From: Atribacteria bacterium SCGC AAA255-N14 | GTDB lineage: Bacteria > Atribacterota > JS1 > SB-45 > 34-128 | Length of the DNA: 24,308 nucleotides | Assembly: GCA_000405345.1 (NCBI GenBank) | Contig: ASPC01000021.1 | Span: 1-24,308 of the forward strand | Direction: 5' to 3' | Shown: piece after piece, positions 5,298 through 24,308 of the stretch | Layout of the letters: the number at the start of each line of letters is the position of its first letter | How positions within the stretch are numbered: position 1 is the first letter of the stretch | Program-made: the position numbers and the translations under genes | The notes under the pieces: generated by a model | Told to the model about the DNA's origin: nothing | Database searches by the model: none | What the model saw: the letters and a program-made list of their open reading frames with translations, nothing else

Positions 5298-5771
5298 ATG
5301 AAAATCGCAATTGCTGGTGAAGTATGTTCCTTCCCGTTGATGAAGGAAGTTAAAAAGCATTTAATTTCTAAGGGTTATGAAGTGCTTGATTTGGGTATGA
5401 CTGATGAAAAAGAACCTATGGTATTCTATGAAACAGCGCCAAAGGTAGCCCGGGCAATACAGAATGGAGAAGCAGAACGCGGAATTTTAATGTGTGGAAC
5501 AGGTATGGGAGTTTGTATCTGTGCAAATAAATTCAAAGGCATCTATGCTGGCCTGGCCGAATCCGCGACTACAGCTGAACTGCATTATGTTATTAACAGA
5601 GCCAATGTCTTGTGTATGGGCAAATGGATTGTTGGAGAAAAAGTGGCAATGGACATAGTAGACAGATGGCTTAGTGCAGAGATCGGTCAAGGTTTTAATA
5701 AAGAGAGGAAAAGAGTTCAGGCAGAGGGGTTTAAGAAAATTCAATGTATTGAGGATAAAAATTTCAAATAA
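5298..5771 (+). CDS. RpiB/LacAB-family sugar isomerase, diverged active site
   Basis: This 157-residue protein has the RpiB fold signature, with the catalytic CGTGMG at 66-71 (C66 base, T68) and the ANK loop that follows. The SDHAG motif of ribose-5-phosphate isomerase B, which contacts substrate, is replaced by GEVCS (7-11). The ring-opening histidine of the CHD motif is also missing (AES, 87-89). A different, perhaps open-chain or non-phosphorylated, substrate is therefore likely. Relatives include erythrulose-phosphate isomerases and, from memory, a sulfoerythrose isomerase in a transketolase-type sulfoquinovose pathway. The ATG at 5298 is chosen because AAAGGAG (5283-5289) lies 8 nt upstream; the in-frame ATG at 5292 is too close. 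The hairpin element at 5125-5228 sits upstream. Confidence 0.82.
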   Translation: MKIAIAGEVCSFPLMKEVKKHLISKGYEVLDLGMTDEKEPMVFYETAPKVARAIQNGEAERGILMCGTGMGVCICANKFKGIYAGLAESATTAELHYVINRANVLCMGKWIVGEKVAMDIVDRWLSAEIGQGFNKERKRVQAEGFKKIQCIEDKNFK

Positions 5772-5914
5772 GAATTACAATTTAACCTGTTTATAAATAC
5801 ATAGCAACTATTTATTATTTGTAGATGCAGGAGGAAGGGAGGTGATTTTATAACAGATAGAATTTGATGAGATTGTGGTAATATTAAGGAAATCAAATTA
5901 AAAGGAGGAAAAAA

Positions 5915-7171
5915 ATGAAAAAATTATTTTTATTGATTCTTGTGGGGCTGGTATTTGCTGGAATGTCTATGTCGGTCCTGGCTGCTGAAGTTACTTCTAA
6001 TGAATTAGAAATCTTTAGTTGGTGGACTGTTGGTGGTGAAGCAACTGGTCTTAAAGTATTATTTGATGAATTTCATGGAAAATATCCAGATGTAGAAATA
6101 ATTAATGCTGCTGTTGGTACTGGGGCAGGTAGTACTGCCAAAGCAGTCCTGGTTTCGAGGATGTTGGGGGGAGACCCACCGGATGCTTTCCAGGTACATG
6201 GGGGGCAGGAACTTATCGACACTTGGGTAGAGATAGGTAAAATGGTACCAGTTACCAGTATTTATGAAAGTGAAGGCTGGAACGAAGTAATGCCTGAAGG
6301 AATTAGAAATCTTGTAGCATATGATGGCGAGTATTGGGCTGTTCCTGTTGGTATTCACCGTGGTAATGTTCTCTGGTTTAATAAAGATGTTTTCGCCAAG
6401 TATAGCCTGGATATTCCTGTTACTTTCGAAGATTTCTTTGAAGTGGCTGGGGTTTTAGAGAAAAATGGTCTTATACCATTGGCTCTGGGTTCAATCAAAG
6501 GATATGAACTTGGTCATACTTTTGAAACTGTCCTGCTTGGAACATTGGGAGCAGAGGGATACCGGGGATTATGGACTGGAGAAAAAAGTTGGTCTGATCC
6601 AGGAGTTGCTAAGGCTCTGGAAACTTTCAAGAAAATGCTTGGTTATGCTAATGAAGACCACTCAGCTTTAAGTTGGGATGCAGCAATGGAATATGTTATA
6701 GCTGGAAAAGCAGCTATGTTAATTCAGGGTGATTGGGTTGATGGATGGATTAAGGCTAAAAATCTTACTGACTTTAACTATGGCCAGGCAACCGCACCTG
6801 GAACCAACGGATCATTTATAGCTATAAATGATACCTTTGGCATTCCTAAAAACGCTCCTCATCAGGATGCAGCAATGGAATTTTTACGTGTCGTTGGTTC
6901 CAAAGAAGCCCAGGAAAAATTTGCTCCACTTAAAGGATGTATTCCTGTCAGAACAGATGCAGATACAACCAAATTTAATGACTATCAAAAATGGTCTTTT
7001 AATGATTGGACAGATAACGAAATAGTAGCCAGTTGTGTTCATGGTTCTGCCGCAAAAGAGAGTTGGGCAACAGAATATAAAGATACAATTAATCTATTTG
7101 CCGCTGATTTGGATGTAGTAGCAACCCAGAAAGCACTTGTTTCAATTGCTGAAGAGGCACTGGCTGAGTAA
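5915..7171 (+). CDS. ABC sugar transporter, periplasmic binding protein (CUT1)
   Basis: This 418-residue extracellular solute-binding protein delivers a sugar to the two permeases downstream. Residues 1-23 form a type I signal peptide with a hydrophobic core and a likely cut after VLAA. There is no lipobox cysteine, so it should be soluble in a periplasm rather than lipid-anchored. The mature start, ELEIFSWWTVGGEATGL, is the hallmark of the glucose/mannose-type branch. A strong AAAGGAGG precedes the ATG. The following 140 bp hold an inverted aldolase fragment and a palindrome that could hold back transcription into the permeases, giving excess binding protein as is common for such operons. 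The ligand cannot be read from sequence. Confidence 0.9.
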   Translation: MKKLFLLILVGLVFAGMSMSVLAAEVTSNELEIFSWWTVGGEATGLKVLFDEFHGKYPDVEIINAAVGTGAGSTAKAVLVSRMLGGDPPDAFQVHGGQELIDTWVEIGKMVPVTSIYESEGWNEVMPEGIRNLVAYDGEYWAVPVGIHRGNVLWFNKDVFAKYSLDIPVTFEDFFEVAGVLEKNGLIPLALGSIKGYELGHTFETVLLGTLGAEGYRGLWTGEKSWSDPGVAKALETFKKMLGYANEDHSALSWDAAMEYVIAGKAAMLIQGDWVDGWIKAKNLTDFNYGQATAPGTNGSFIAINDTFGIPKNAPHQDAAMEFLRVVGSKEAQEKFAPLKGCIPVRTDADTTKFNDYQKWSFNDWTDNEIVASCVHGSAAKESWATEYKDTINLFAADLDVVATQKALVSIAEEALAE

Positions 7172-7190
7172 GCAGTTGGCTTTTTAAGTA

Positions 7191-7267
7191 ACGGGGTGTT
7201 TTCAGCTCTTTTGCGACCTCTATTATCGCTTCTGCAAACGCTAGCCCTGCTACATTAAATAGCCCGA
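7191..7267 (-). pseudogene. Inverted 77-nt copy of the aldolase gene's early coding region
   Basis: Read on the minus strand, 7267-7191 matches the aldolase coding sequence at 10640-10715 with four substitutions and one inserted base. The encoded peptide is GLFNVAGLAFAEAIIEVAKELKT, against GLFNVAGLEFAEAIIEVAEELKT in the intact gene. Two of the four substitutions are silent in that frame. It lies between the binding-protein stop and the palindrome at 7267-7292, so the operon transcript carries antisense to its own aldolase message 3.4 kb downstream. It is either a relic of a rearranged second aldolase copy or a retained regulatory element. Confidence 0.85.
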
Positions 7268-7292
7268 CCGGGCGAGGAATTCCTCGCCCGGT
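7267..7292 (+). terminator. Perfect 26-bp palindrome, possible attenuator or terminator
   Basis: The sequence is a perfect palindrome centred on GGAATTCC, with arms ACCGGGCGAGGAA and TTCCTCGCCCGGT, and is followed at once by TTT and AAAGG. As RNA it would form a GC-rich stem of about 11 bp. Its position between binding protein and permease genes suggests partial termination or mRNA stabilisation. It begins at the base where the inverted aldolase copy ends, so it may also mark a rearrangement junction. Confidence 0.6.
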
Positions 7293-7311
7293 TTTAAAGG
7301 TAGGAGTTTGA

Positions 7312-8259
7312 ATGCAAAGAACCTTGATTCTCAAAACGAAAATAGAGAAAGACCGCAACTTTCTTTCCAGACTTACAAACGAACATGACGGATTGTGGGC
7401 TATTGTAACTGTAATACCATCAATTATTGCTATTGCTGTTTTTGTCTATAGCTTTATTATCTGGAATGGATATGTTTCTTTGAGTAAATGGAAAGGAATT
7501 ATACCTAATTATGCCTGGCGAGGCATACAAAATTATATTAAACTCTTCAACACCCAGCGATTTCAAATTGACTTGAGGAATATGTTAGTATTTTCCGTTG
7601 TGTTCATAGGAGGATGTCTTGTTATTGGCTTATTCCTGAGTATTTTGCTTGATCAGAATGTCCGGGGGGAGACTTTTTTCCGGGGTGTGTTTTTATTTCC
7701 TATGGCTGTAGCCTTAGTTGTTACAGGTGTTGTATGGGGCTGGCTTTTAAGCCCAGGAAATCAAATAGCCGGTTACATAGGTGTTAATCAGTTATTTGAA
7801 TGGCTTAATCTAGATTTTTTAATTAATGGGTGGTACACCGATAGAACATTTGGAATTGTTGCTGTTGCTATAGCAGCTATCTGGCAGATGTCTGGTTATG
7901 TAATGGTTATGTATTTAACGGCAATTAGAGGGATTTCTATTTCCATTCGTGATGCAGCCCATATAGATGGAGCCAATGTATTTCAATTATATAGATATAT
8001 TATTATGCCAAATCTCAAAGCAATAACACTAGGGATAGTCATTATTTTGGGACATATTTCGCTGAAGGTATTTGACCTTGTTGCAGCCATGACTGGACCG
8101 GGCAAAGGATTTGCAACTGATGTTCCGGCATTTTTTATGTGGGATACCACCTTTAGAGGCAATAATTTCAATACCGGCGCAGCTATAGGTATTATTCTTT
8201 TGATACTTATTTCCTTTCTGGTTGTCCCATATCTAATACATCTGCGAAGGAGTGAATAA
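7312..8259 (+). CDS. ABC sugar transporter permease (MalF/UgpA-like, CUT1)
   Basis: This is a 315-residue inner-membrane permease with about six hydrophobic segments, the first near residues 28-52. The EAA loop that docks the ATPase is near residues 205-230, in the stretch IRDAAHIDGANVFQLYRYIIMPNL. GGTAGGAG precedes the ATG. It pairs with the next gene, 3 nt after its stop. No ATP-binding subunit is present in the window, so a shared MsmX/UgpC-type ATPase encoded elsewhere is expected. Transcription into this gene must pass the palindrome at 7267-7292. Confidence 0.9.
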   Translation: MQRTLILKTKIEKDRNFLSRLTNEHDGLWAIVTVIPSIIAIAVFVYSFIIWNGYVSLSKWKGIIPNYAWRGIQNYIKLFNTQRFQIDLRNMLVFSVVFIGGCLVIGLFLSILLDQNVRGETFFRGVFLFPMAVALVVTGVVWGWLLSPGNQIAGYIGVNQLFEWLNLDFLINGWYTDRTFGIVAVAIAAIWQMSGYVMVMYLTAIRGISISIRDAAHIDGANVFQLYRYIIMPNLKAITLGIVIILGHISLKVFDLVAAMTGPGKGFATDVPAFFMWDTTFRGNNFNTGAAIGIILLILISFLVVPYLIHLRRSE

Positions 8260-8262
8260 GTA

Positions 8263-9141
8263 GTGAAAAACGAGGGACTATTCGCTGCTAAGATAAAAAA
8301 GATAAGGATGTCCAGAATAATTATATATGGGATATTAATATTTTTTTCAATTATATACCTGATTCCTATATATATCCTTTTTACTACTTCTGTAAAGTCC
8401 TTTAAAGAAGTAAGCCTTTCACGGATGTGGTATTTTCCGATGGAGTTTACTTTAGAAAACTTTAAACTGGTCTGGGTCGGTAGTGTTGAACAGGGATTTA
8501 ATGGACTGGGCAGGATGTTTATGAATAGTATTTATGTGGTAATCCCTGCCACCGTAATTTCTACATCGGTTGGTTCATTAAACGGATATGTTTTTTCCAA
8601 GTGGAAATTTAAATATTCTAACGTGATCTTCTCTCTATTTCTATTTGGAATGTTTATTCCTTATCAAAGTATACTGATACCTCTTGTCGAAACTATGAGA
8701 CGGATAGGCTTATATGGTTCATTATCAGGCTTAATTTTGGCCCAGATAATCTATGGTATTCCCATTACAACCTTAATTTTTAGGAATTATTATGCGACCA
8801 TCCCAACTGAATTAATAGAATCAGCCCGAATGGATGGAGCTAACTTTTTTAATATATACCGACATATATTTTTACCTCTTTCGATTCCGGCTTCAGCAGT
8901 TGTTGTCATCTGGCAGTTTACCTCAATCTGGAATAGTTATTTATTCCCGGTAGTTCTAACAACGAGTCCCAAGGTACAGCCTATTACTGTGGGATTGGTT
9001 AATTTTGCGGGTAGTTATTTTATTAAATGGAATATTCAAATGGCAGGAGCGGTGATAACGGCTCTGCCAGCATTAATAATCTTTTTATTACTGGGCAAAC
9101 TCTTTATTCGTGGTATGATGGCTGGAGCCATAAAAGGATAG
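8263..9141 (+). CDS. ABC sugar transporter permease (MalG/UgpE-like, CUT1)
   Basis: This is the second permease of the importer (292 aa). It has a hydrophobic N-terminal segment (about 18-40), further membrane spans and the EAA loop LIESARMDGANFFNIYRHIFLPL near 185-207. It starts with GTG, 3 nt after the previous stop; AAGGAG inside the end of the previous gene serves as ribosome binding site, so the two permeases are translationally linked. The short C-terminal tail FIRGMMAGAIKG is typical of this subunit. Confidence 0.92.
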   Translation: MKNEGLFAAKIKKIRMSRIIIYGILIFFSIIYLIPIYILFTTSVKSFKEVSLSRMWYFPMEFTLENFKLVWVGSVEQGFNGLGRMFMNSIYVVIPATVISTSVGSLNGYVFSKWKFKYSNVIFSLFLFGMFIPYQSILIPLVETMRRIGLYGSLSGLILAQIIYGIPITTLIFRNYYATIPTELIESARMDGANFFNIYRHIFLPLSIPASAVVVIWQFTSIWNSYLFPVVLTTSPKVQPITVGLVNFAGSYFIKWNIQMAGAVITALPALIIFLLLGKLFIRGMMAGAIKG

Positions 9142-9191
9142 AGATAATTACTACGATGCAACCTATTTAAATATAAATGGAGGGAAAGATA

Positions 9192-10541
9192 ATGAGTATT
9201 AAGACGGAACTAAGTGTAGGATTTGTTAGCCTGGCAAGACAGGGTTTTGACATGGATTATGCGAAAATGGCAGCAGAGAAATCATTCCAGCAGATAAAAA
9301 AGTTTGCTAAAGTAGTAGCACCCGAAGGATATCTGGTTGGAGACAATAAAGGTACCCAGATGGCTCTGGAGCTATTTAAGAGAGAAAAAACGGATCTGCT
9401 GGTTATTCAATGTGGTACTTTTACATCTGCTGAAATAGTCCTGGACTGGGTAAGTCAATTAGGGATACCTGTTGTTATTTGGGCAATTAAGGAGCCTGAC
9501 TTTGAGGGTAAACTAAAGTTGAATTCCCTGGTATGTGCTAATGCAATTACCAGTGCTCTTTATAAAATGGATGCAAAATTTAAATTCTTCTACGAAGATT
9601 ACAAAGATGAACAATATTATAAGAGGCTGGCAAGGTATTTGAATGTAGTAAACGTAAAAAACAAACTAAAAAAAACCCGGATAGGTCTGGTAGGTGCTCG
9701 TTCAAACGGTTTTCAGGATGTTACAGTCGACGAACTTAGCCTACTTAAAAAGATAGGACCAAGGGTGCATTTCATCTCTATTGCTGAGGTATTTGAACGG
9801 GCTAAGAAAATAAAAAGTCAGATAACCAAAGGGATAGCTGAAGAAATGCGCGGCAAGGGTAAACTTAAAAATATAGGCCAGGGTGAACTGGTTAAAAGTG
9901 CAGAGGTTTATCAGGCCTTGAAAGAACTTGCTAGCGAAAATAATCTTGACGCTTTAGCGGTGCGCTGTTTACCAGAATTTGCTCAACTGTATGGTACTGT
10001 TATCTGTGGATGTCTATCATTTCTAATAGATGATGGTATTATTGCAGCCTGCGAGGCAGATGTTCCCGGGGCTATTTCCATGTTAATTCAAAAATACCTT
10101 TCTGATGGGAATTCCCCATTCCTGGCCGATCTTATCGAAGTTGATAATGATAAAAACACAGGTCTTTTCTGGCATTGTGGTGTTGCTCCCTGTTCGCTGG
10201 CCCGAAATGGTGAGGTAGAGCTTTCCAGGCATTTTGTACGGGATCTGGGTGTTACTGTTAACTTCTCCTTAAAACCAGGGCGAATTACTCTGGCCAGATT
10301 GGATAGTGTGGGAACAGACTACCGGATGCTTATAGCCAGTGGAGAATCGACAGGAGAAACCATTCCTATGAAGGGGACATCAATGAATGTAGTCTTTGAC
10401 CAGGATAGCTCTGACTTACTCGATATTATTATCAATAAGGGATTTCCACATCATTTCAGTATTGTCTATGGAGATTTAAAAGAAGACCTTATTGACTTAT
10501 GTAACCTTCTTGAGATTGAATCTGTTGAGGCTTCAAAATAA
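9192..10541 (+). CDS. L-fucose/L-arabinose isomerase family protein
   Basis: This 449-residue protein belongs to the FucI/AraA fold group, whose members interconvert aldoses and ketoses using a divalent metal. The N-terminal part (about 1-170) has the alternating Rossmann-like pattern. The C-terminal catalytic part carries likely metal ligands in CLPEF, ACEADVPGA and FWHCGVAP. The ATG at 9192 is preferred because GGAGG (9179-9183) is correctly spaced; an upstream in-frame ATG at 9177 overlaps that ribosome binding site. It is shorter than E. coli FucI and belongs to the loosely characterised relatives. Encoded between the importer and the aldolase and kinase, it most likely isomerises the imported sugar or a derivative. 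The substrate is unknown. Confidence 0.8.
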   Translation: MSIKTELSVGFVSLARQGFDMDYAKMAAEKSFQQIKKFAKVVAPEGYLVGDNKGTQMALELFKREKTDLLVIQCGTFTSAEIVLDWVSQLGIPVVIWAIKEPDFEGKLKLNSLVCANAITSALYKMDAKFKFFYEDYKDEQYYKRLARYLNVVNVKNKLKKTRIGLVGARSNGFQDVTVDELSLLKKIGPRVHFISIAEVFERAKKIKSQITKGIAEEMRGKGKLKNIGQGELVKSAEVYQALKELASENNLDALAVRCLPEFAQLYGTVICGCLSFLIDDGIIAACEADVPGAISMLIQKYLSDGNSPFLADLIEVDNDKNTGLFWHCGVAPCSLARNGEVELSRHFVRDLGVTVNFSLKPGRITLARLDSVGTDYRMLIASGESTGETIPMKGTSMNVVFDQDSSDLLDIIINKGFPHHFSIVYGDLKEDLIDLCNLLEIESVEASK

Positions 10542-10584
10542 TTCTCTATCTGGTTGTAATGAAATAGAAATTAGGAGGAGTAGT

Positions 10585-11412
10585 ATGTCACTAGTTAATT
10601 TAAATCAATTATTTGAAGAAAAGAAAGAAAAGCAGGGCATCGGGCTATTTAATGTAGCAGGGCTAGAGTTTGCAGAAGCGATTATAGAGGTAGCAGAAGA
10701 GCTGAAAACCCCCGTAATATTAGGTCTGCCGGAACGTTTTTTTCAGTTCTTCCAACTCGAGACTGTTACCCATATGTGTGTTGATATGGCTGAACGGGCC
10801 AGTGTTGCGGTAGTAGTCCATATCGATCACGGGAAAAGTTTTGACTGTCTTTTAAAATCGCTCAGAAATGGTGTATCATCAGTTATGTTTGATGGCTCTA
10901 CCTTGCCTTATGAAGATAATGTCAAAAAGACAGCAGAAATAGTCCGGATAGCCCATAGTATGGGAGCTACTGTTGAAGGAGAGCTTGGTTACGTAGGTCG
11001 TGGGGATGATTTTAACCTTGGCGATACCTCGTTTTATACAAAACCAGAACAGGCTGCTGATTTCGTAGAGCGTACCGGAGTTGATGCCCTGGCAATAGCA
11101 GTAGGTAGTGCCCATGGTGTCTATAAAACTAAACCCAGTATTGACTTTGAGCGGATTAAAACTATCAAAAAAAAGGTAAACAGTGCACTGGTACTTCATG
11201 GTGGCTCAGGATTAAGCGATGAAGACTTCAAGAAGGCAATTGCCTGTGGTATCGATAAAGTGAATATATTTACCCAACTCTCACTATCGACAATGGAAAG
11301 AGCGACCAGAGCCATACCCGAATGCCCTGGATGGATTGAAGTTACCAGAGAATTACGACAGGTTATAGCTGATGGAGTTAGAAGGTATATGACAGTTTTT
11401 AATAATGCATAA
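10585..11412 (+). CDS. Class II ketose-phosphate aldolase (FBA/GatY/IolJ-like)
   Basis: This 275-residue zinc-dependent aldolase should cleave a ketose phosphate to DHAP plus an aldehyde. Probable zinc ligands and active-site residues are HIDHG (near 80), EGELG (near 132), GSAHG (near 173) and LHGGSGL (near 203), followed by the phosphate-site stretch KVNIFTQLS. It is closer to the fructose/tagatose-bisphosphate and IolJ family than to FucA/AraD. The ATG at 10585 follows AGGAGG with good spacing; earlier in-frame codons overlap the upstream gene. The kinase begins 47 nt downstream. Its early coding region (10640-10715) exists as a 77-nt inverted copy at 7191-7267. A dehydrogenase of the IolA type in the same locus would suit a semialdehyde product. 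Confidence 0.88.
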   Translation: MSLVNLNQLFEEKKEKQGIGLFNVAGLEFAEAIIEVAEELKTPVILGLPERFFQFFQLETVTHMCVDMAERASVAVVVHIDHGKSFDCLLKSLRNGVSSVMFDGSTLPYEDNVKKTAEIVRIAHSMGATVEGELGYVGRGDDFNLGDTSFYTKPEQAADFVERTGVDALAIAVGSAHGVYKTKPSIDFERIKTIKKKVNSALVLHGGSGLSDEDFKKAIACGIDKVNIFTQLSLSTMERATRAIPECPGWIEVTRELRQVIADGVRRYMTVFNNA

Positions 11413-11459
11413 GATTTTCAGACTATAATTAAGGACCCTCTGAAAAGGAGTTATAGGAG

Positions 11460-13016
11460 ATGTCAGAAAAGCACTTCCTTTTAGGTATAGATGTAGGAAC
11501 AACTAATTGTAAAGCTCTGCTTTTTGATGAAAAGGGGACTACTGTAGCCTCTGCCAGGGTAAAAACAATAACCCATAATGATAAAGGGCAGTATTATTAC
11601 CTCCCCGACGAACTATGGGGGATAATAATCAAAGTAATATCTGAGGTCTTAAAAGTAGTAGAACCTTCAAACATATCAGGTGTTTGTATAACCAGTATGG
11701 CTGAGTCGGGGTTGCCCCTTGATAAAGAAAACAATCCAACCCATCATATTATACCCTATTTTGATGAGAACTCATCACCTCAGGCAGCTCGGCTTGAGGA
11801 GCTCTTTGGTCGAAAGAAATTGTTTGAACTAACCGGGTTAAATGTAAGCCCAATCTTCTCTTTAGCCAAGATTTTATGGATAAGGGATAATTACCCTGAA
11901 GCTTTTTCAAGGACTCGAAAATGGCTCTGTATCCCTGATTACGTAAACTATAAATTGACCGGCAAGATGGTAACAGACTATTCTATTGCTTCACGAACTA
12001 TGGTCTTTGATGTTTTTAAGCGTAGTTGGTCAACCGAGATACTGGAAACAGTTGGTTTAAATACGGATCTCTTCCCTCCGGTTGTCCCTGGCGGAAGTTT
12101 AATAGGGGGAGTAACCCGTGAGGCTGCTGGTCTTACGGGACTCTGTGAAGGGATACCGGTTATTGTCGGAGGGCATGACCACTACTGTGGCTCTCTCGGT
12201 GCGGGACTATTATTGGGAAATCGACTGATAGATTCTTCAGGTAGTGCTGAAAGCCTGCATGGTTTGCTGGGGGAAGAAGTAGAGAACATTGAAGATTTTA
12301 CTGGCTTTTCTGTGGGGATTTATGTTGATGGTAAATCTTATTATGCCGGCGGTGGGTTTAATTGTTCGGGAGTATCTGTTGACTGGATTATTGAACGCTG
12401 CGCTTCATTAAAAGATTGGGTATCTACTCAAAGAGAAAGAGAGGACTTATCTTATGAGGAGAAAGATGAGATAATGAATCAGTCTTACCAGAGACCAGCG
12501 GGAGCGAATGGTCTTCTTTATCTTCCTCACCTTCGTGGGAGTGGATTTCCGGACTGGAACATTAGTTCCCGAGGAGCTTTTGTGGGGTTAAGGTCCTCCC
12601 ACCGTTCTCCTGATATGGTTCGGGCAGTGGTAGAAGGAGTCTGTTTTGAATTAAAGGCAATATTAGACCGCTTAAGAAAACTTATTAAGCACGATATTAC
12701 CCAAATAACTACTATCGGCGGTGGGGCACGTAATCAACCCTGGTTGCAGCTAAAGGCTGATATAACCGGGTTGCCCATTGAAGTACCGGCAGTTAAAGAA
12801 GCAGCTGCCCTAGGAGCAGCTTTGCTGGCAGGGGTGGGCACAGGAATATATACCGATTTATATGAAGCAACAAAAAAGACTTATCAAGTAGACAAACGGT
12901 TTATACCCAATCAGGAAAATTGCGAAAAATATGATAGATTATTTTCTATAAACCGAAAATTATATCCTGTTTTAAAAGAAATAAATCGGGACTTAACCTA
13001 TTTTAAAGAGGACTGA
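11460..13016 (+). CDS. FGGY-family carbohydrate kinase
   Basis: This 518-residue ATP-dependent sugar kinase has the two-domain FGGY layout. The N-terminal phosphate-1 motif is GIDVGTTNCKALLFD (about 9-23). The substrate-side GGHDH near 237 carries the likely catalytic aspartate. The C-terminal ATP-site stretch is GGGARNQPWLQLKADITGLP (about 420-440), followed by EAAALGAAL. ATAGGAG lies just before the ATG. It is the last gene of the importer-isomerase-aldolase-kinase block and probably phosphorylates the ketose that the aldolase then cleaves. It resembles xylulokinase and gluconate kinase relatives generally; no single substrate can be chosen. Confidence 0.9.
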   Translation: MSEKHFLLGIDVGTTNCKALLFDEKGTTVASARVKTITHNDKGQYYYLPDELWGIIIKVISEVLKVVEPSNISGVCITSMAESGLPLDKENNPTHHIIPYFDENSSPQAARLEELFGRKKLFELTGLNVSPIFSLAKILWIRDNYPEAFSRTRKWLCIPDYVNYKLTGKMVTDYSIASRTMVFDVFKRSWSTEILETVGLNTDLFPPVVPGGSLIGGVTREAAGLTGLCEGIPVIVGGHDHYCGSLGAGLLLGNRLIDSSGSAESLHGLLGEEVENIEDFTGFSVGIYVDGKSYYAGGGFNCSGVSVDWIIERCASLKDWVSTQREREDLSYEEKDEIMNQSYQRPAGANGLLYLPHLRGSGFPDWNISSRGAFVGLRSSHRSPDMVRAVVEGVCFELKAILDRLRKLIKHDITQITTIGGGARNQPWLQLKADITGLPIEVPAVKEAAALGAALLAGVGTGIYTDLYEATKKTYQVDKRFIPNQENCEKYDRLFSINRKLYPVLKEINRDLTYFKED

Positions 13017-13184
13017 GTGCTTTAGCTTTAGATTTAAAAATTATTATCACCGAATAGCTTAAAGCGTATTGTTATACGAGGGGTGACAGGATTTGTTTTC
13101 CATGTTTACAGGTTCCGCCGCGACAACCCATATAAAGATGATTCTATTTGAGTTAAATTATACTGATTGTTTTGGAGGTAAAAA

Positions 13185-14240
13185 ATGGATGAAGTTATTA
13201 ATGTAGGATTAATAGGTTATGGTATGTCAGGTCAGATATTTCATGCCCCCATAATCAATTCCGTTTCGGGGTTTAAACTTGTGAAAGTAGTAGAACGTCA
13301 TAGTGAAAAATCCAAGGAAAGGTGTCCGTGGGTTGAAATTGTAAGAGATACAGATGAAATCTTTAATGACAAAAACATCGAACTTGTTGTAGTTGCGGTG
13401 CCTAACAAGCTTCACTTGGAGCTTGCACAAAAAGCACTTGATTCAGGGAAGCACGTAATAGTAGAAAAGCCATTTACAATAACTTCTGATGAAGCCCAAA
13501 AATTAATTGATCTTGCTCAAAAACAGGACAGGATACTTAGCGTCTATCAGAATAGGAGGTTCGATGGCGACTTTAAAACTGTTAAAAAGGTCATTAATAG
13601 TAATATACTTGGGAGACTTGTGGAATATGAAGCGCATTATGATAGATATAAAAACATTTTAAGACCCAGTGCATGGAAGGAAAGCGACGAATTAGGCATG
13701 GGAATATTGTATGATTTGGGTTCACACCTTATCGACCAGGCACAGGTATTATTCGGATTGCCTAAAAGCATAATAGCTGACACAAGGGTTCAGAGAGATT
13801 TAGGGAGAAATGTTGACAGCTTCGAAATTATTATGGATTATGATAAATTAAAAACGACACTGAAAGCCGGTATGGTTGTGAGAGAACCAAGTCCACATTA
13901 TATAGTTCATGGTACGTCAGGCTCATTTATAAAGTATGGTACGGATCCACAGGAAGAAGCTCTTCAGAGGGGTTTATCACCTGTAAACAGTATGGACTGG
14001 GGAATAGAACCTGAAAGCCAGTGGGGTCTTCTAAATACTAATATAAGCGGAATACATTTCAAAGGGAAAATAGAAACCTGCAGAGGAGATTACACTGTTT
14101 ATTATGAAAATATTTATAATGCAATTGTGAAAGGTGAAGAATTACTGGTAAAACCTGAAGAGGGAAGAAATACCATACGCATAATAGAGCTTGCAATGCA
14201 GAGTGTTAAGGAGAAGAGGATGGTGGAGTTTACGCTGTAG
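13185..14240 (+). CDS. Gfo/Idh/MocA oxidoreductase, IolW (scyllo-inositol dehydrogenase)-like
   Basis: This 351-residue NAD(P)-dependent oxidoreductase has an N-terminal Rossmann domain with GLIGYGMSGQIFHAP (8-22) and the family signature EKPF near 95. YQNRRFDGDFKTV (near 122-134) resembles the stretch typical of NADP-dependent scyllo-inositol dehydrogenase (IolW/YdgJ). The catalytic region of the second domain contains DLGSHLIDQA, with the expected histidine. TTGGAGG precedes the ATG. A 168-bp gap without an obvious terminator separates it from the kinase, so it may share the transcript or have its own promoter. It probably oxidises or reduces a polyol or sugar at one carbon; an inositol link is suggested by sequence and by the IolA-like dehydrogenase at 2403, but not proven. 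Confidence 0.85.
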   Translation: MDEVINVGLIGYGMSGQIFHAPIINSVSGFKLVKVVERHSEKSKERCPWVEIVRDTDEIFNDKNIELVVVAVPNKLHLELAQKALDSGKHVIVEKPFTITSDEAQKLIDLAQKQDRILSVYQNRRFDGDFKTVKKVINSNILGRLVEYEAHYDRYKNILRPSAWKESDELGMGILYDLGSHLIDQAQVLFGLPKSIIADTRVQRDLGRNVDSFEIIMDYDKLKTTLKAGMVVREPSPHYIVHGTSGSFIKYGTDPQEEALQRGLSPVNSMDWGIEPESQWGLLNTNISGIHFKGKIETCRGDYTVYYENIYNAIVKGEELLVKPEEGRNTIRIIELAMQSVKEKRMVEFTL

Positions 14241-15332: not shown

Positions 15333-15422
15333 TTAAGTAGTTTAGTCAGAAAATGAACTTTCATTAAAGAGATTTCTCTATTATAGTTTTACCTATCTAC
15401 GTCATTGCAAACATTTTCATGA

Positions 15423-15620
15423 AGTGAATATAGGCAGTGGATACTGACATTCAGATTAAAATATGTGTTTGTGGCGGGTAAGATTATAAGGATTGCAAGG
15501 CAGACTATATTGAAGCTTCTGGAAGGGTATCCTTACAAAGAGGTATTTCATAAAAAGCTGTTAAAGAACAAGACCTGTGGACTCAAACAAAATTTTGACA
15601 AAATTAGGTTGGAGTGCTAA
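15423..15620 (+). pseudogene. C-terminal fragment resembling a DDE transposase
   Basis: An open frame of 65 codons without a start encodes LKYVFVAGKIIRIARQTILK and then LLEGYPYKEVFHKKLL. This pattern (hydrophobic, AGKI-R-AR, ILKL, YP-KEVF) is what I recall from the C-terminus of IS4/IS1380-type DDE transposases. No catalytic DDE part remains. The threonine promoter at 15595-15623 overlaps its last codons, so the remnant may have contributed or preserved promoter DNA. The rest of 15333-15422 shows nothing clear. Confidence 0.4.
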
Positions 15621-15623
15621 AAT
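15595..15623 (+). promoter_or_regulatory. Sigma-70-type promoter of the threonine operon
   Basis: TTGACA (15595-15600) is separated by exactly 17 bp from TAAAAT (15618-15623). Transcription would start near 15630, just before the first stem of the T-box leader, so promoter and riboswitch fit together. Confidence 0.8.
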
Positions 15624-15640
15624 TATAAAAATTTAATAAC

Positions 15641-15851
15641 AAGCCGACGACGGGAAGAGTAGGTCGAAAGTTTTTGACCGAAAACCAACCCGGAGGCTTA
15701 AGATGAATCTTACAAAAAGAGTAAATCTTTTGGGAGAAGACCCTTACAGCTTATAAGAGAGCCCCGAAAACACATTGTCTTTGGGGAAATAAAGTGGAAC
15801 CACGAAAATCTTTCGTCTTTATATTTAACATATAAGGCGAAAGATTTTTTT
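15641..15851 (+). ncRNA. T-box leader, threonine specifier (ACC), with terminator
   Basis: This tRNA-sensing leader controls the operon below by transcription antitermination. Stem I is short: AAGCC/GGCTT, a GA-rich internal loop, CGGG/CCCG, then a specifier loop with AAGAGTA on the 5' side and GAAAACCAA on the 3' side, capped by GGTC/GACC. The triplet ACC (15684-15686) followed by A is the threonine specifier. GAGAG precedes Stem III (CCCC 15762-15765, GGGG 15783-15786). The T-box core AAAGTGGAACCACG is at 15791-15804; its UGGA bulge would pair with a tRNA ending UCCA. The terminator stem runs from 15806 to about 15846, ending in a T-tract. Uncharged tRNA-Thr should allow read-through into hom. 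The usual distal Stem I features are not visible. Confidence 0.88.
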
Positions 15852-15876
15852 ATAATTGAAAGGTTGGTAGATAATT

Positions 15877-19738: not shown

Positions 19739-20754
19739 GAAAATATAATATTGCCGTGATAGGGGCTACCGGAGCAGTTGGGGAAGAAATGAGATTGGTT
19801 TTGGAAGAGAGAAAATTTCCGGTGGAAAAATTAAGTCTCTTCGCCTCAATCAGATCAGCTGGCAAAGAATATGAATTTAAGGGAGAAAAGATCGTAGTAC
19901 AGGAATTAAAAGATAATTCTTTTGACGGAATAGATATTGCCCTTTTTTCCGGAGGAGACGAAGTAAGCAAGCATTTTGCTCCCCTTGCTGTTCAGCAGGG
20001 GACCATAGTAGTAGATAATGGTAAATATTTCCGAATGGACCCCAATGTTCCCTTAATAGTTCCAGAAGTAAATCCTGATGATTTAGAATGGCACAAGGGG
20101 TTAATCGCTAATCCTAACTGTTCTACTATCCAGATGGTGGTGGCTTTAAAACCTATTTATGATGAGGTGGGGATAGAAAGGGTTGTGGTGGCTACTTATC
20201 AGAGCGTTTCCGGAACCGGCAAAGAAGCCATAGAGGAACTAAAAAATCAGGCCGTCGCTATCGCAAGCGGTAAAGAATTTAAAATCAAAGCCTATCCTTA
20301 TCAGATAGCTTATAATACACTCCCTCATATCGGTTCTTTTAAAGAAAACGGATATACCACTGAAGAAATGAAGATGTTAGATGAAACCAGAAAGATATTG
20401 GGAGATAATAATATCCGGGTTGCGGCTACCACAGTGAGAGTCCCGGTCTTTCGGGCTCATTCGGAAGTAGTCCACATAGAGACCAAAAAGAAAATTTCCG
20501 TGCAGAGAACTCGGGAAATATTAAGTGCCTTCCCCGGGATTAAAGTAGTTGATAATCCGGAAAAATTAGAATATCCTCTACCTTTATTTGCCGAAGGAAA
20601 AGATGAAGTCTTTGTAGGCAGAATCAGAGAAGATATCTCTACCGAAAACGGTCTGGTAATGTGGGTGGTATCCGATAATCTGCGAAAAGGTGCCGCTCTA
20701 AATGCCGTTCAAATCGCTGAGAAAATTATTGAAAAGAAATTATTTTTAAAATAA
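19735..20754 (+). CDS. asd: Aspartate-semialdehyde dehydrogenase
   Basis: This 339-residue enzyme reduces aspartyl phosphate to aspartate semialdehyde, linking lysC to hom. The NADP motif is VIGATGAVGEEM (8-19). The catalytic cysteine is C129 in ANPNCSTIQM. SVSGTGKEA (near 168-176) and RVPVFRAHSEVVHIE, with the active-site histidine, follow. The start codon shares the ATGA overlap with the lysC stop, so translation is coupled. It is the last gene of the T-box operon; a strong terminator begins at once after the stop. Confidence 0.95.
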   Translation: MRKYNIAVIGATGAVGEEMRLVLEERKFPVEKLSLFASIRSAGKEYEFKGEKIVVQELKDNSFDGIDIALFSGGDEVSKHFAPLAVQQGTIVVDNGKYFRMDPNVPLIVPEVNPDDLEWHKGLIANPNCSTIQMVVALKPIYDEVGIERVVVATYQSVSGTGKEAIEELKNQAVAIASGKEFKIKAYPYQIAYNTLPHIGSFKENGYTTEEMKMLDETRKILGDNNIRVAATTVRVPVFRAHSEVVHIETKKKISVQRTREILSAFPGIKVVDNPEKLEYPLPLFAEGKDEVFVGRIREDISTENGLVMWVVSDNLRKGAALNAVQIAEKIIEKKLFLK

Positions 20755-20789
20755 AAACCTACCAGAGGACGGCCCTCTGGTAGGTTTTT
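20755..20789. terminator. Strong intrinsic terminator after asd, probably bidirectional
   Basis: A perfect 14-bp stem (AAACCTACCAGAGG 20755-20768, its complement 20774-20787) has a 5-base loop and is followed by a T-run; on the other strand the A-run gives the same signal. It closes the threonine operon and also suits the convergent minus-strand gene that ends at 20856. Confidence 0.95.
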
Positions 20790-20855
20790 ATTTCTATGTA
20801 AAGAGGACGTCCCCTTGATATTTCCTTAACAAAGTACGTCTGTATAGCTTGATAA

Positions 20856-22625
20856 TTATAGATTATGCCTGCCAAATCGTTGTTCACTTGCTTGTAAAAT
20901 CATTTTTAACGTATTACCATATGATATCCCTGTAATCTCAGCCATCTTGGCAAGATGACCATCCCAGCACCAACCTGGATTGGGATTTACTTCAAGCAGC
21001 TTTGGGGTGCCATTAGCATCAATTCTCCAGTCAAATCGACAGTAATCTTTACATTCCAACCTCTCGGATAATTTCAAACAACACTCTATAATAAATTTTT
21101 CTACATCTTCCGAAAGGTCAGCGGTAGTAGATTTTATATTCCAGTAAGGTGATTCCGGGAGCCACTTAGACTCATAACCGCATATCTGTGGCAAGTTTTC
21201 TGGCAGTAATGAATAATCTGCCATAATGATAGGTAATACCGTATAGGATTCAGGAGGATTTCCTATTACCCCGACACTAAGGTCTTTTCCGGTAAGAAGT
21301 TCCTCAATCAGAATGGGTTTATCGTAACCAAATTTTTCCCTGATCTCTGAGATAGCATTTACCAGTTCCTCAAAACTATTTGCAACGCACATCTGGGTAA
21401 TCCCAAAACTGGAATCTCCGAAGTTAGGTTTTGCAATTACCGGAAAACTAAAGGGCAATTCAAAGGTAGTGTCCTCGGGCTTAATAAAGAAAGCTTCCGG
21501 TACCGGGATTTCCATCTCCCTTGCAATTCCACGTACTAATGATTTGTCATAACAGTAAGCAAGACATTGGGGACCTGAACCAGTGTATGGTATTTCGAGC
21601 ATTTCCAGCAAAGAGGGCACATGAAGCTCTTTTTGTGCGTCATTATTGTAACCTTCATCACACAGATTAAAGGCAATATCTATTTTCGCCTTTTCTTTCA
21701 TCTTCATTAAGTCCTGTATTAAAGTATCGTGACTGGTTAGATAGGTAAAATGAAAATCTTTCAGTTCCCTTAATTCAGATTTTAATTGATCTATAGTGTA
21801 AAAATCATCATCATCAAAGGTGGTAGAAGGCTTTATAGGGTCTGCTTTGTGGGGGTCTCCTAAAATTACTACAACATTCTTTAGCTCTTTTTTGAGCTTC
21901 TTTTTAACAGGTGTCCATTCTTTTTTAGTTACCGCTGTAACAATTAAACATCTTTCCATCATACCCAAATCTTGATTTCGCTTGGAATCAGGAGAGATTT
22001 GACCGTGGAAAGTTATTTCACTGAAACCAGCTGTTTTCAAAAGACGAGTTAAACTTTCTTTGGAGTAAAGTCTTTCTGCGTAGAATTGGTCTGCTACCAC
22101 GCCTTTTTCTATATGCGTAATAACTTCTCTGGATATAAGGCGTTGCTTATCAAGAGAGAGTGAGCGCTCTCTACAAACAAAATGTTTTTTGTCTATCCAT
22201 TCCCAAGATCTGTTTTGAAAATGCTCCTTTAAGTACTCTCCGTCGGTAATCTCAATAAGAAGCTTTCCCCAAGGTTTGAAAATTCTAAATACTTCCTTTA
22301 GCACTCTCAGGTCATCCTGGATAGTCTCAAAATAGCCGAAGCTATTACCCAATATGGTTACAACATCAAAAGTATCGGGTGGAGAGGGAATTTTGCGGGC
22401 ATCACCCTCTCTGAACTTGATATTTATATCTTCCTTTTTTGCACGTGCTTTAGCTTTTTGGATTAGATAATGGGAGCGATCTAGTCCTTCAATATTTTTA
22501 AAATTTCTCTTAGCCAATTCAAGAGAATGTCTACCCTGTCCACAGCACAGGTCAAGGATTCTATCCTCTGGCGAGAGTTTTAGAATATTTAAAAATAAGT
22601 CAATCTCACGAGAGGTTATATTCAA
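20856..22625 (-). CDS. Fusion: SAM methyltransferase and D-Ala-D-Ala-ligase-like ATP-grasp
   Basis: This 589-residue two-domain protein lies on the minus strand. Residues 1-230 are a class I methyltransferase: motif I is ILDLCCGQGRHSLELA (23-38), with GLDRS and a GDARKIP acidic-loop region after it. Residues 250-589 are an ATP-grasp ligase like Ddl: YTGSGPQCLAYCYDK (347-361), FPVIAKPNFGDSSFGI (394-409), an EEL segment (441-443) and FDWRIDANGTPKLLEVNPNP (531-550) with the metal-binding E and N. It could join and methylate an amino acid or peptide product, but no partner genes indicate which. The listed TTG start is doubtful: conserved-looking coding sequence continues upstream (see 22626-22797). 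Its codons and base composition resemble the host, unlike the IS beside it. Confidence 0.82.
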   Translation of the reverse strand: MNITSREIDLFLNILKLSPEDRILDLCCGQGRHSLELAKRNFKNIEGLDRSHYLIQKAKARAKKEDINIKFREGDARKIPSPPDTFDVVTILGNSFGYFETIQDDLRVLKEVFRIFKPWGKLLIEITDGEYLKEHFQNRSWEWIDKKHFVCRERSLSLDKQRLISREVITHIEKGVVADQFYAERLYSKESLTRLLKTAGFSEITFHGQISPDSKRNQDLGMMERCLIVTAVTKKEWTPVKKKLKKELKNVVVILGDPHKADPIKPSTTFDDDDFYTIDQLKSELRELKDFHFTYLTSHDTLIQDLMKMKEKAKIDIAFNLCDEGYNNDAQKELHVPSLLEMLEIPYTGSGPQCLAYCYDKSLVRGIAREMEIPVPEAFFIKPEDTTFELPFSFPVIAKPNFGDSSFGITQMCVANSFEELVNAISEIREKFGYDKPILIEELLTGKDLSVGVIGNPPESYTVLPIIMADYSLLPENLPQICGYESKWLPESPYWNIKSTTADLSEDVEKFIIECCLKLSERLECKDYCRFDWRIDANGTPKLLEVNPNPGWCWDGHLAKMAEITGISYGNTLKMILQASEQRFGRHNL

Positions 22626-23099: not shown

Positions 23100-24308
23100 T
23101 TCTCCCTTAACCCTCTATTCATATCCGCTATTTGAAAATCAAGCTACCCATCTCACCTTCCGGGGAGGCGCATGGCCCTGGGGAGATAAGATCTCTCTGG
23201 TGACCATCTGGCCTTTTTTACAACAAGGACAGAGGTGAGGGTCAATACCGGTTAGTTTAAAAAGTAATTCCTCCCAGCCAACTGATTCGGTTGACTGCTG
23301 TTTCCCGTTTGAGGTATTCCCCAAAATCTTCTGACATCGCCTGAGCTTGGTTTTTCGATTCCGGTTACTGAGCAGCCCATAATGTCTGATTTTGACAAAG
23401 TTATCTGGTAAGATGTGCAATAAAAACCGTCGAATAAACTCAAAGGCCTCCAGGGTCATCTGCTTGTTCTTGTTGCCATCTCCGTAATCCCGCCAACGAA
23501 AGGTGACCTTCCCATCTTCCACTTTAACCAGACGATGATTAGATATTGCTACCCGGTGGGTATAGCGGCCGAGATATTCCAGTAGCTGTTCAGGACTCCG
23601 AAACGGTGGTTTACAGTAGAGGACCCACTGTTTCCGGTAAAGCTGATCCAACATCTTCTGAAATTCTCGCTTATCGCCCATCGAATAGATTCTTCCGACA
23701 AACTTTAGCTTACCAGCTCGATAGGCCTGTTTTAGATAGAACAGAAATTTTCCCCGGAACAACCGGGACAAAACCTTCACCGGGATGAAAAACCCTCCTC
23801 TGGAAGAAATCCACCGCTGACCATCAAGGGATAACCCCCCACCAGGGACGAGGCAATGGAGGTGAGGATGGTCCATCAGATTCTGCCCCCAGGTGTGCAA
23901 AATCGAGATAAAGCCAATCTCTGCACCCAGATGCTTAGGGTCTTTGCTTAAGGCAAGAAGGGCTTCGGAGGCTGCCTTGAACAGGAGGCCATAAACCACC
24001 CTCTGGTTTCTCAAGGCCAAAGGATTAAGTAGATCTGGGATGGTGAAAACGATATGAAAATATTCGACCGGTAGTAAATCCCTCTTCCGGGCAGCCAGCC
24101 ACTTCTCCTTAACCAGACTTTGACACTTGGGACAATGCCGGTTCCGACAGGAGTTGTAAGAAATTCTCAAATATCCACAGCTGTCGCATTGGTCCACATG
24201 GCCACCTAAGGCAGCAGTGCGGCAACGTTCGATAGCACTCATAGTTTTAAGCATGCGTATCGGCAGAGGATGGGACTCTCTGTAGGCCGGGCCAAACTGG
24301 CGAAATAT
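23100..24308 (-). mobile_element. IS91-family insertion sequence (3' part)
   Basis: The element is recognised by its Y2 HUH transposase and is noticeably richer in GC than the host sequence. Reading in the transposase direction, the sequence after the stop runs about 40 nt to a GAAC tetranucleotide (complement of GTTC 23096-23099), the target type reported for the ori end of IS91 elements. The boundary at 23100 is therefore a prediction. The other end lies outside the window. Such elements have no inverted repeats or target duplications and move by rolling-circle transfer. Confidence 0.7.
23139..24308 (-). CDS. IS91-family Y2 HUH transposase, 5' end outside window
   Basis: This rolling-circle transposase carries a zinc-binding N-terminus, CDSCG followed by CRNRHCPKCQ (residues 23-45 from the ATG at 24254). 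The HUH metal motif lies in HPHLHC (129-134), and two tyrosines in YLGRY (227 and 231) are the Y2 nucleophiles. The frame remains open upstream of that ATG, reading IFRQFGPAYRESHPLPIRML, which matches the usual start of the family, so the gene continues beyond 24308 and the internal ATG is not the true start. The C-terminal zinc-like cluster CPCCKKG (near 340) is intact. Nothing in the visible part is broken, so the element may be active. Confidence 0.92.
   Translation of the reverse strand: MFRQFGPAYRESHPLPIRMLKTMSAIERCRTAALGGHVDQCDSCGYLRISYNSCRNRHCPKCQSLVKEKWLAARKRDLLPVEYFHIVFTIPDLLNPLALRNQRVVYGLLFKAASEALLALSKDPKHLGAEIGFISILHTWGQNLMDHPHLHCLVPGGGLSLDGQRWISSRGGFFIPVKVLSRLFRGKFLFYLKQAYRAGKLKFVGRIYSMGDKREFQKMLDQLYRKQWVLYCKPPFRSPEQLLEYLGRYTHRVAISNHRLVKVEDGKVTFRWRDYGDGNKNKQMTLEAFEFIRRFLLHILPDNFVKIRHYGLLSNRNRKTKLRRCQKILGNTSNGKQQSTESVGWEELLFKLTGIDPHLCPCCKKGQMVTREILSPQGHAPPRKVRWVA

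Follow-up and report, generated by a model that had tools for sequence, protein, structure and literature searches.

Why does the gap between two neighboring transporter genes hold a piece of an aldolase gene from the same gene run, written backwards? The question is raised by a contig of Atribacteria bacterium SCGC AAA255-N14 (ASPC01000021.1), which we analyzed as one stretch of 24,308 nucleotides (the window). In this window, six genes follow one another on the forward strand with short gaps between them. They encode an ABC sugar-binding protein (SBP; 5915–7171); ABC sugar permeases A (7312–8259, GlcT/UgpA-like) and B (8263–9141, GlcU/UgpE-like), both scoring under the curated cut-offs; an isomerase-like protein (9177–10541), the only NCBIfam match of which is the sulfoquinovose isomerase SftI at 324 bits against a cut-off of 700; a class II ketose-bisphosphate aldolase (10585–11412, TIGR00167, above the cut-off); and an FGGY-family sugar kinase (11460–13016, best match XylB, under the cut-off). 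The gene identities given in a sequence-only reading of this DNA hold at the family level. Four of the gaps in the run measure 3, 35, 43, and 47 nt; the remaining one, between the SBP and permease A genes, is 140 nt long (7172–7311), 77 nt of which are the copy, leaving 63 nt when the copy is subtracted. The statement that the operon transcript carries an antisense copy of its own aldolase gene holds only if the gene run is one mRNA.

By local alignment of positions 7151–7330 against the reverse complement of 10561–10780, we found that 7191–7267 is identical to the reverse complement of 10640–10715 in 72 of 77 columns (93.5% DNA identity). The upstream copy, 7191–7267, differs from its aldolase source by four substitutions and one extra base. 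Its aldolase sense strand is the minus strand here, it begins 19 nt 3′ of the SBP stop codon, and its source on the plus strand is nt 56–131, or codons 19–44, of the aldolase open reading frame counted from the ATG at 10585. The alignment confirms the 77-nt antisense copy that had been read from the letters, with its coordinates, its four substitutions and its extra base, and the earlier estimate that the copied part lies about 55 nt after the start was right.

The same pair was returned by an independent repeat search as arms 7194–7267 and 10640–10713, 93% complementary and separated by a spacer of 3372 nt, and it is the longest repeat listed for the window. When the intergenic stretches were compared with the window by blastn, the inverted copy had an E value of 5e-23, and the alignment of 7172–7311 to the reverse-complemented window scored 127, compared with 33 for the best of 200 Markov shuffles. 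The shuffle maximum and the blastn E value together place the inverted match far beyond chance. No further aldolase match was found in the 140-nt gap by blastn with E up to 5. The copy also matches 1120–1164 in a transketolase gene weakly over 46 nt (74%, E 0.001), which is read as a resemblance by chance between helix-coding stretches. When the window and 19 other loci were each compared with themselves (20 sources, 299,680 bases; a small sample, with no close relative among the 19 loci), the copy and its aldolase source were the sole spaced inverted repeat (40–2000 nt, E ≤ 1e-6), and the remaining inverted matches were local palindromes. These results indicate that inverted scars are not frequent within that sample.

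Which of the two sides changed? Read as aldolase, the copy carries Glu28Ala, Glu38Lys, two synonymous changes, and a +1 frameshift (codons counted from the aldolase start at 10585). Among the 120 homologues listed, of 7993 hits, residue 28 is Glu in 96 and Asp in 24, and residue 38 is Glu in 63, Gln in 55, Val in one, and Arg in one, and never Lys. Because the residues of the copy at these two positions are absent from the 120 listed homologues, the changes are placed in the copy: Glu28Ala and Glu38Lys most likely arose there after the copy was made, not in the gene. Judged from these changes, the copy appears to be free of aldolase constraint. Derivation of the copy from a different aldolase was considered and rejected on the same ground, as its residues 28 and 38 match none of the 120 listed homologues (of 7993).

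The copy adjoins a perfect 26-nt palindrome (7267–7292; 26 of 26 positions self-complementary, E 2.9e-6), with which it shares base 7267, the palindrome's outermost base. A run of four T (7292–7295) starts at the last base of the palindrome; the predicted fold pairs the first two U, and the palindrome with its flanks (7256–7305) folds at −26.5 kcal/mol. The stem-loop site lies directly downstream of the SBP gene, between the SBP stop (7171) and the permease ATG (7312), such that the copy is flanked by the SBP stop codon on one side and by a possible internal terminator on the other. The terminator scan does not list 7267–7292 because it requires at least five T. The scan does list a weak terminator-like hairpin (7160–7179, plus strand) that overlaps the SBP stop codon and has a T run behind it; since the scan of 5700–13300 gave eight terminator-like sites compared with 4.9 expected from shuffles, this hairpin is weak evidence.

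Could the palindrome regulate the genes on either side of it? In cellulolytic clostridia, stem-loops are usual downstream of SBP genes, where they are internal terminators that set the SBP-to-permease ratio, and 88 of the 191 clostridial stem-loops are of Type II, with fewer than five U (energies −38.3 to −10.1 kcal/mol), according to the excerpted text of Wu et al. 2022 (PMC9045158). The palindrome resembles these terminators in its position just 3′ of an SBP gene and its long GC-rich stem, its few U would suit Type II, and its energy of −26.5 kcal/mol falls within their range. Stripped of the copy, the gap would hold this stem-loop within 63 nt. On the other hand, the terminators of Wu et al. 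were tested in clostridia, whereas 7267–7292 is predicted only and unlisted by the terminator scan, and the adjoining inverted aldolase copy has no counterpart among the clostridial SBP–permease terminators described in that excerpt. By this analogy, the palindrome is a putative internal terminator that may set the SBP:permease ratio.

Palindromic sequence is also present elsewhere in the window. At 20749–20793, a perfect 20-nt inverted repeat with a 5-nt spacer overlaps the end of an asd-like gene and is likely a terminator, as predicted, before a convergent open reading frame (20856–22625, minus strand); from its translation, this frame seems to join a methyltransferase-like N-terminal part to an ATP-grasp, D-Ala-D-Ala-ligase-like C-terminal part. 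The 544-nt gap between the nagB-like and homoserine dehydrogenase genes (15333–15876), in which there is no open reading frame of at least 90 amino acids, holds two imperfect palindromes (15581–15615 and 15805–15848). The protein encoded by this homoserine dehydrogenase gene has relatives of up to 96% identity, and the best of those with an organism name, 91%, 88%, and 84% identical, belong to Candidatus Atribacteria/Caldatribacteriota, so that the host looks like a member of Atribacterota.

How, then, did a backward piece of the aldolase gene come to lie next to the palindrome? It is probably a short inverted templated insertion that now drifts in the gap after the SBP gene. An error of DNA synthesis would have placed an inverted copy of some 77 nt of the aldolase gene in the SBP–permease gap, possibly by template switching, perhaps at the palindrome 7267–7292, whose abutment to the copy makes it a plausible stalling point where synthesis was disturbed. 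By another route, the copy could be the shrunken remains of an inverted duplication. Later substitutions and the frameshift would have accumulated in what was presumably a near-neutral copy, and the real function of the gap would be partial transcription termination after the SBP gene, via the palindrome, with or without the copy. Both the direction of copying and the copying mechanism are what we infer from the two sequences as they now stand.

Template switching is an accepted and thoroughly studied microbial source of reverse-complement copies (PMC8794818), and the reverse-complement identity of 72 in 77 agrees with what a template switch yields, namely, an inverted copy of sequence found elsewhere in the same molecule. 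As in the template-switch mutations of Monttinen and Loytynoja (2022; PMC8794818), a reverse-complement copy would have been made in one event, with the mismatches coming later. The cases in the excerpted text of that paper make hairpin stems, whereas here the two stretches are 3.4 kb apart. Possible microhomology at the switch points comes to only one countable base (7267, at the palindrome edge). The source–copy spacing of 3.4 kb exceeds the usual one-fork picture of template switching, and this distance may instead indicate a remnant of a larger inverted duplication.

The distribution of the changes along the copy agrees with drift, although it is not specific to it. All five fall within the first 50 of the 77 nt, an arrangement with a chance of (50/77)^5, or about 0.12 by hand arithmetic, and drift allows the intact 27-bp pairing run that results, yet function would predict the same run. 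The suggestion in the sequence-only reading that the repeat is a relic is the best supported of its proposals.

Could the copy nevertheless act through RNA? An SBP message that ended at the palindrome would carry a putative 77-nt antisense tail able to pair with the aldolase mRNA, and such pairing, whether in trans or inside the operon mRNA, would lead to RNase III cutting or to a block of aldolase translation, lowering the aldolase relative to the transporter. We consider this unlikely, although the energetics allow it. The predicted duplex reaches −134 kcal/mol over 77 nt with an uninterrupted 27-bp run. Among 136 other 76-nt windows, taken every 50 nt along 5915–13016, the two windows that cover the greater part of the source reached −90.5 and −82.3, and the next best reached −42.4. 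Pairing of the 3′ tail with the aldolase region from −60 to +200 would gain about 82 kcal/mol over separate folding. Furthermore, the gap with its edge (7172–7315) has a better folding energy than every one of 200 shuffles (z −3.38), though much of this is owed to the palindrome alone. A long RNA duplex between the copy and the aldolase mRNA is therefore thermodynamically possible in these models.

The changes within the copy, on the other hand, do not look like those of a maintained duplex. Three of the four substitutions break pairs, one gives a G–U pair, and the extra base bulges. Random copy-side changes would keep a pair in about 16% of cases, so that the observed one in four shows no constraint, though the number (n = 4) is small. 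With three of four substitutions breaking pairs, nothing shows that the pairing has been preserved. Moreover, the target of the duplex is codons 19–44, inside the coding region and away from the start site, and moving ribosomes would clear pairing inside translated codons; it is because the duplex would lie in translated codons and not at the start site that regulation is the minority reading. No Rfam family was found at its gathering score anywhere in the window. The earlier idea that a duplex between the two arms sets different expression of the cistrons consequently finds no support, given the broken pairs and the target within the coding region.

A natural comparison is OppZ of Vibrio cholerae, a discrete 52-nt RNA from an operon 3′ end that depends on RNase E and Hfq, is conserved among vibrios and shows that autoregulation of part of an operon by a 3′-end RNA exists in Vibrio (PMC7398697). 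Like OppZ, an RNA from the transporter operon could pair here with another cistron of its own operon. OppZ, in the excerpted text of that paper, pairs at the translation start, and pairing inside one long mRNA, when tested, proved not to be the mechanism (PMC7398697). The aldolase copy, in contrast, is antisense over its full length to internal codons (nt 56–131 of the reading frame), involves no translation initiation region, and bears no sign of constraint comparable to the conservation of OppZ. The fuller scheme of an operon that makes its own antisense, in which partial termination would free a 3′ tail that silences or processes the aldolase cistron and in which the element was born by a one-step template switch, is unlikely.

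Since the DNA sequenced from Atribacterota has often been amplified or mixed, could the copy be an artefact of assembly or amplification, that is, part of a chimeric molecule? Inverted chimeras are the main error type in multiple displacement amplification, and inversions accompanied by an intervening deletion make up over 85% of the chimeras reported, in the excerpted text of PMC1855051. At this locus, the copy differs from its source at five places, including the two residues absent from the 120 listed homologues, although a fresh chimera would presumably be identical, and two junctions would be needed, as collinear operon sequence stands on both sides of the copy. It does not combine an inverted join with an intervening deletion and identity to its source, as such chimeras would. 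The five differences and the two junctions make an amplification chimera very unlikely.

Another origin of the relic, as the remnant of a formerly complete second aldolase gene on the opposite strand, would explain why an altered piece of aldolase is present, and this is the part of the former proposal of a scar of a lost aldolase copy that stands, since the relic is aldolase sequence. The lost gene itself fares worse. Only 77 nt are present; there is no other aldolase piece in the gap, both edges are sharp, and the remaining gap is just 63 nt. Furthermore, the copy matches this particular aldolase gene at 93.5% DNA identity, whereas the listed homologues beyond the group at 97–99% protein identity (four listed, one of them partial) start at 73% protein identity. 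We regard a second gene as highly improbable; losing such a gene whole is a less simple account than a short inverted templated insertion. As an observation apart, the aldolase gene of a distant Actinobacteria MAG contains a 77-nt direct tandem repeat, 95% identical (6484–6560 and 6562–6638 of its locus), which is in frame with a 26-codon period and is either a real duplication or an assembly error.

At a low rate, recombination could occur between inverted repeats that are 74–77 nt long and share a perfect run of 27 bp, and the repeat had also been proposed as a recombination site for reversible inversion of 7268–10639. Such a flip would leave the genes for permease A, permease B, and the isomerase pointing against the operon, and it would also move the opening 55 nt of the aldolase reading frame, splitting them from the rest of it. 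With the permeases, the isomerase, and the aldolase put out of working orientation, the inversion reads as damage, not as a switch. The sole mobile-element enzyme among the ten scanned proteins is an IS91-family transposase, 12 kb beyond the downstream arm. The inversion site is thus disfavored and, in our judgment, extremely unlikely. The gene of this transposase (23139–24308, minus strand, 472.8 bits) runs off the end of the window, and no relative of the protein at or above 80% identity was found among 3635 plasmid records.

Finally, the copy might donate promoter-like sequence to the permease genes, as the pattern scan lists TTTTCA-16-TATTAT at 7199–7226 (plus strand) together with its aldolase source, TTTTCA-16-TATAAT at 10708–10681 (minus strand); this we reject as exceedingly improbable, because the promoter-like sites are at chance level (24 found vs. 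21.1, sd 4.5, in shuffles), and in addition the substitution carried by the copy makes for a poorer −10 match, and the palindrome stands between the promoter-like site and the permease gene. A template/variable repeat pair of a diversity-generating retroelement was likewise rejected: differences in such pairs are confined to template adenines, whereas the gene-to-copy differences on the aldolase sense strand are A–C, T–A, A–C, G–A, and one inserted A, and they are not adenine-only in either direction or on either strand.

Do relatives share the copy or show its empty site? A contig scan with the aldolase matched its pattern in 78 stretches, of which 16 encode a relative, the best being 49% identical, and none of these presents an empty site; because the scan patterns are exact peptides, relatives at about 70% can be missed. 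When the six operon proteins were compared by tblastn with the 19 loci, no locus gave matches to the SBP and to a permease together at E 1e-5. In viral contigs, an exact 25-nt pattern gave no hits, neither of two candidate permease relatives was confirmed, and aldolase was found at three loci, with only 30–36% identity. Among the titles and abstract openings of the literature searched, there was no description of an intergenic antisense copy of a gene from the same operon.

What would the copy mean for the biology of these bacteria? As a scar left by a short inverted templated insertion, it adds one more natural bacterial case of such an insertion, and because it abuts a palindrome, it is useful for asking whether palindromes seed inverted copies. 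If it were active as RNA, it would mean that a cis-encoded antisense regulator with near-perfect complementarity can arise by a single mutation.
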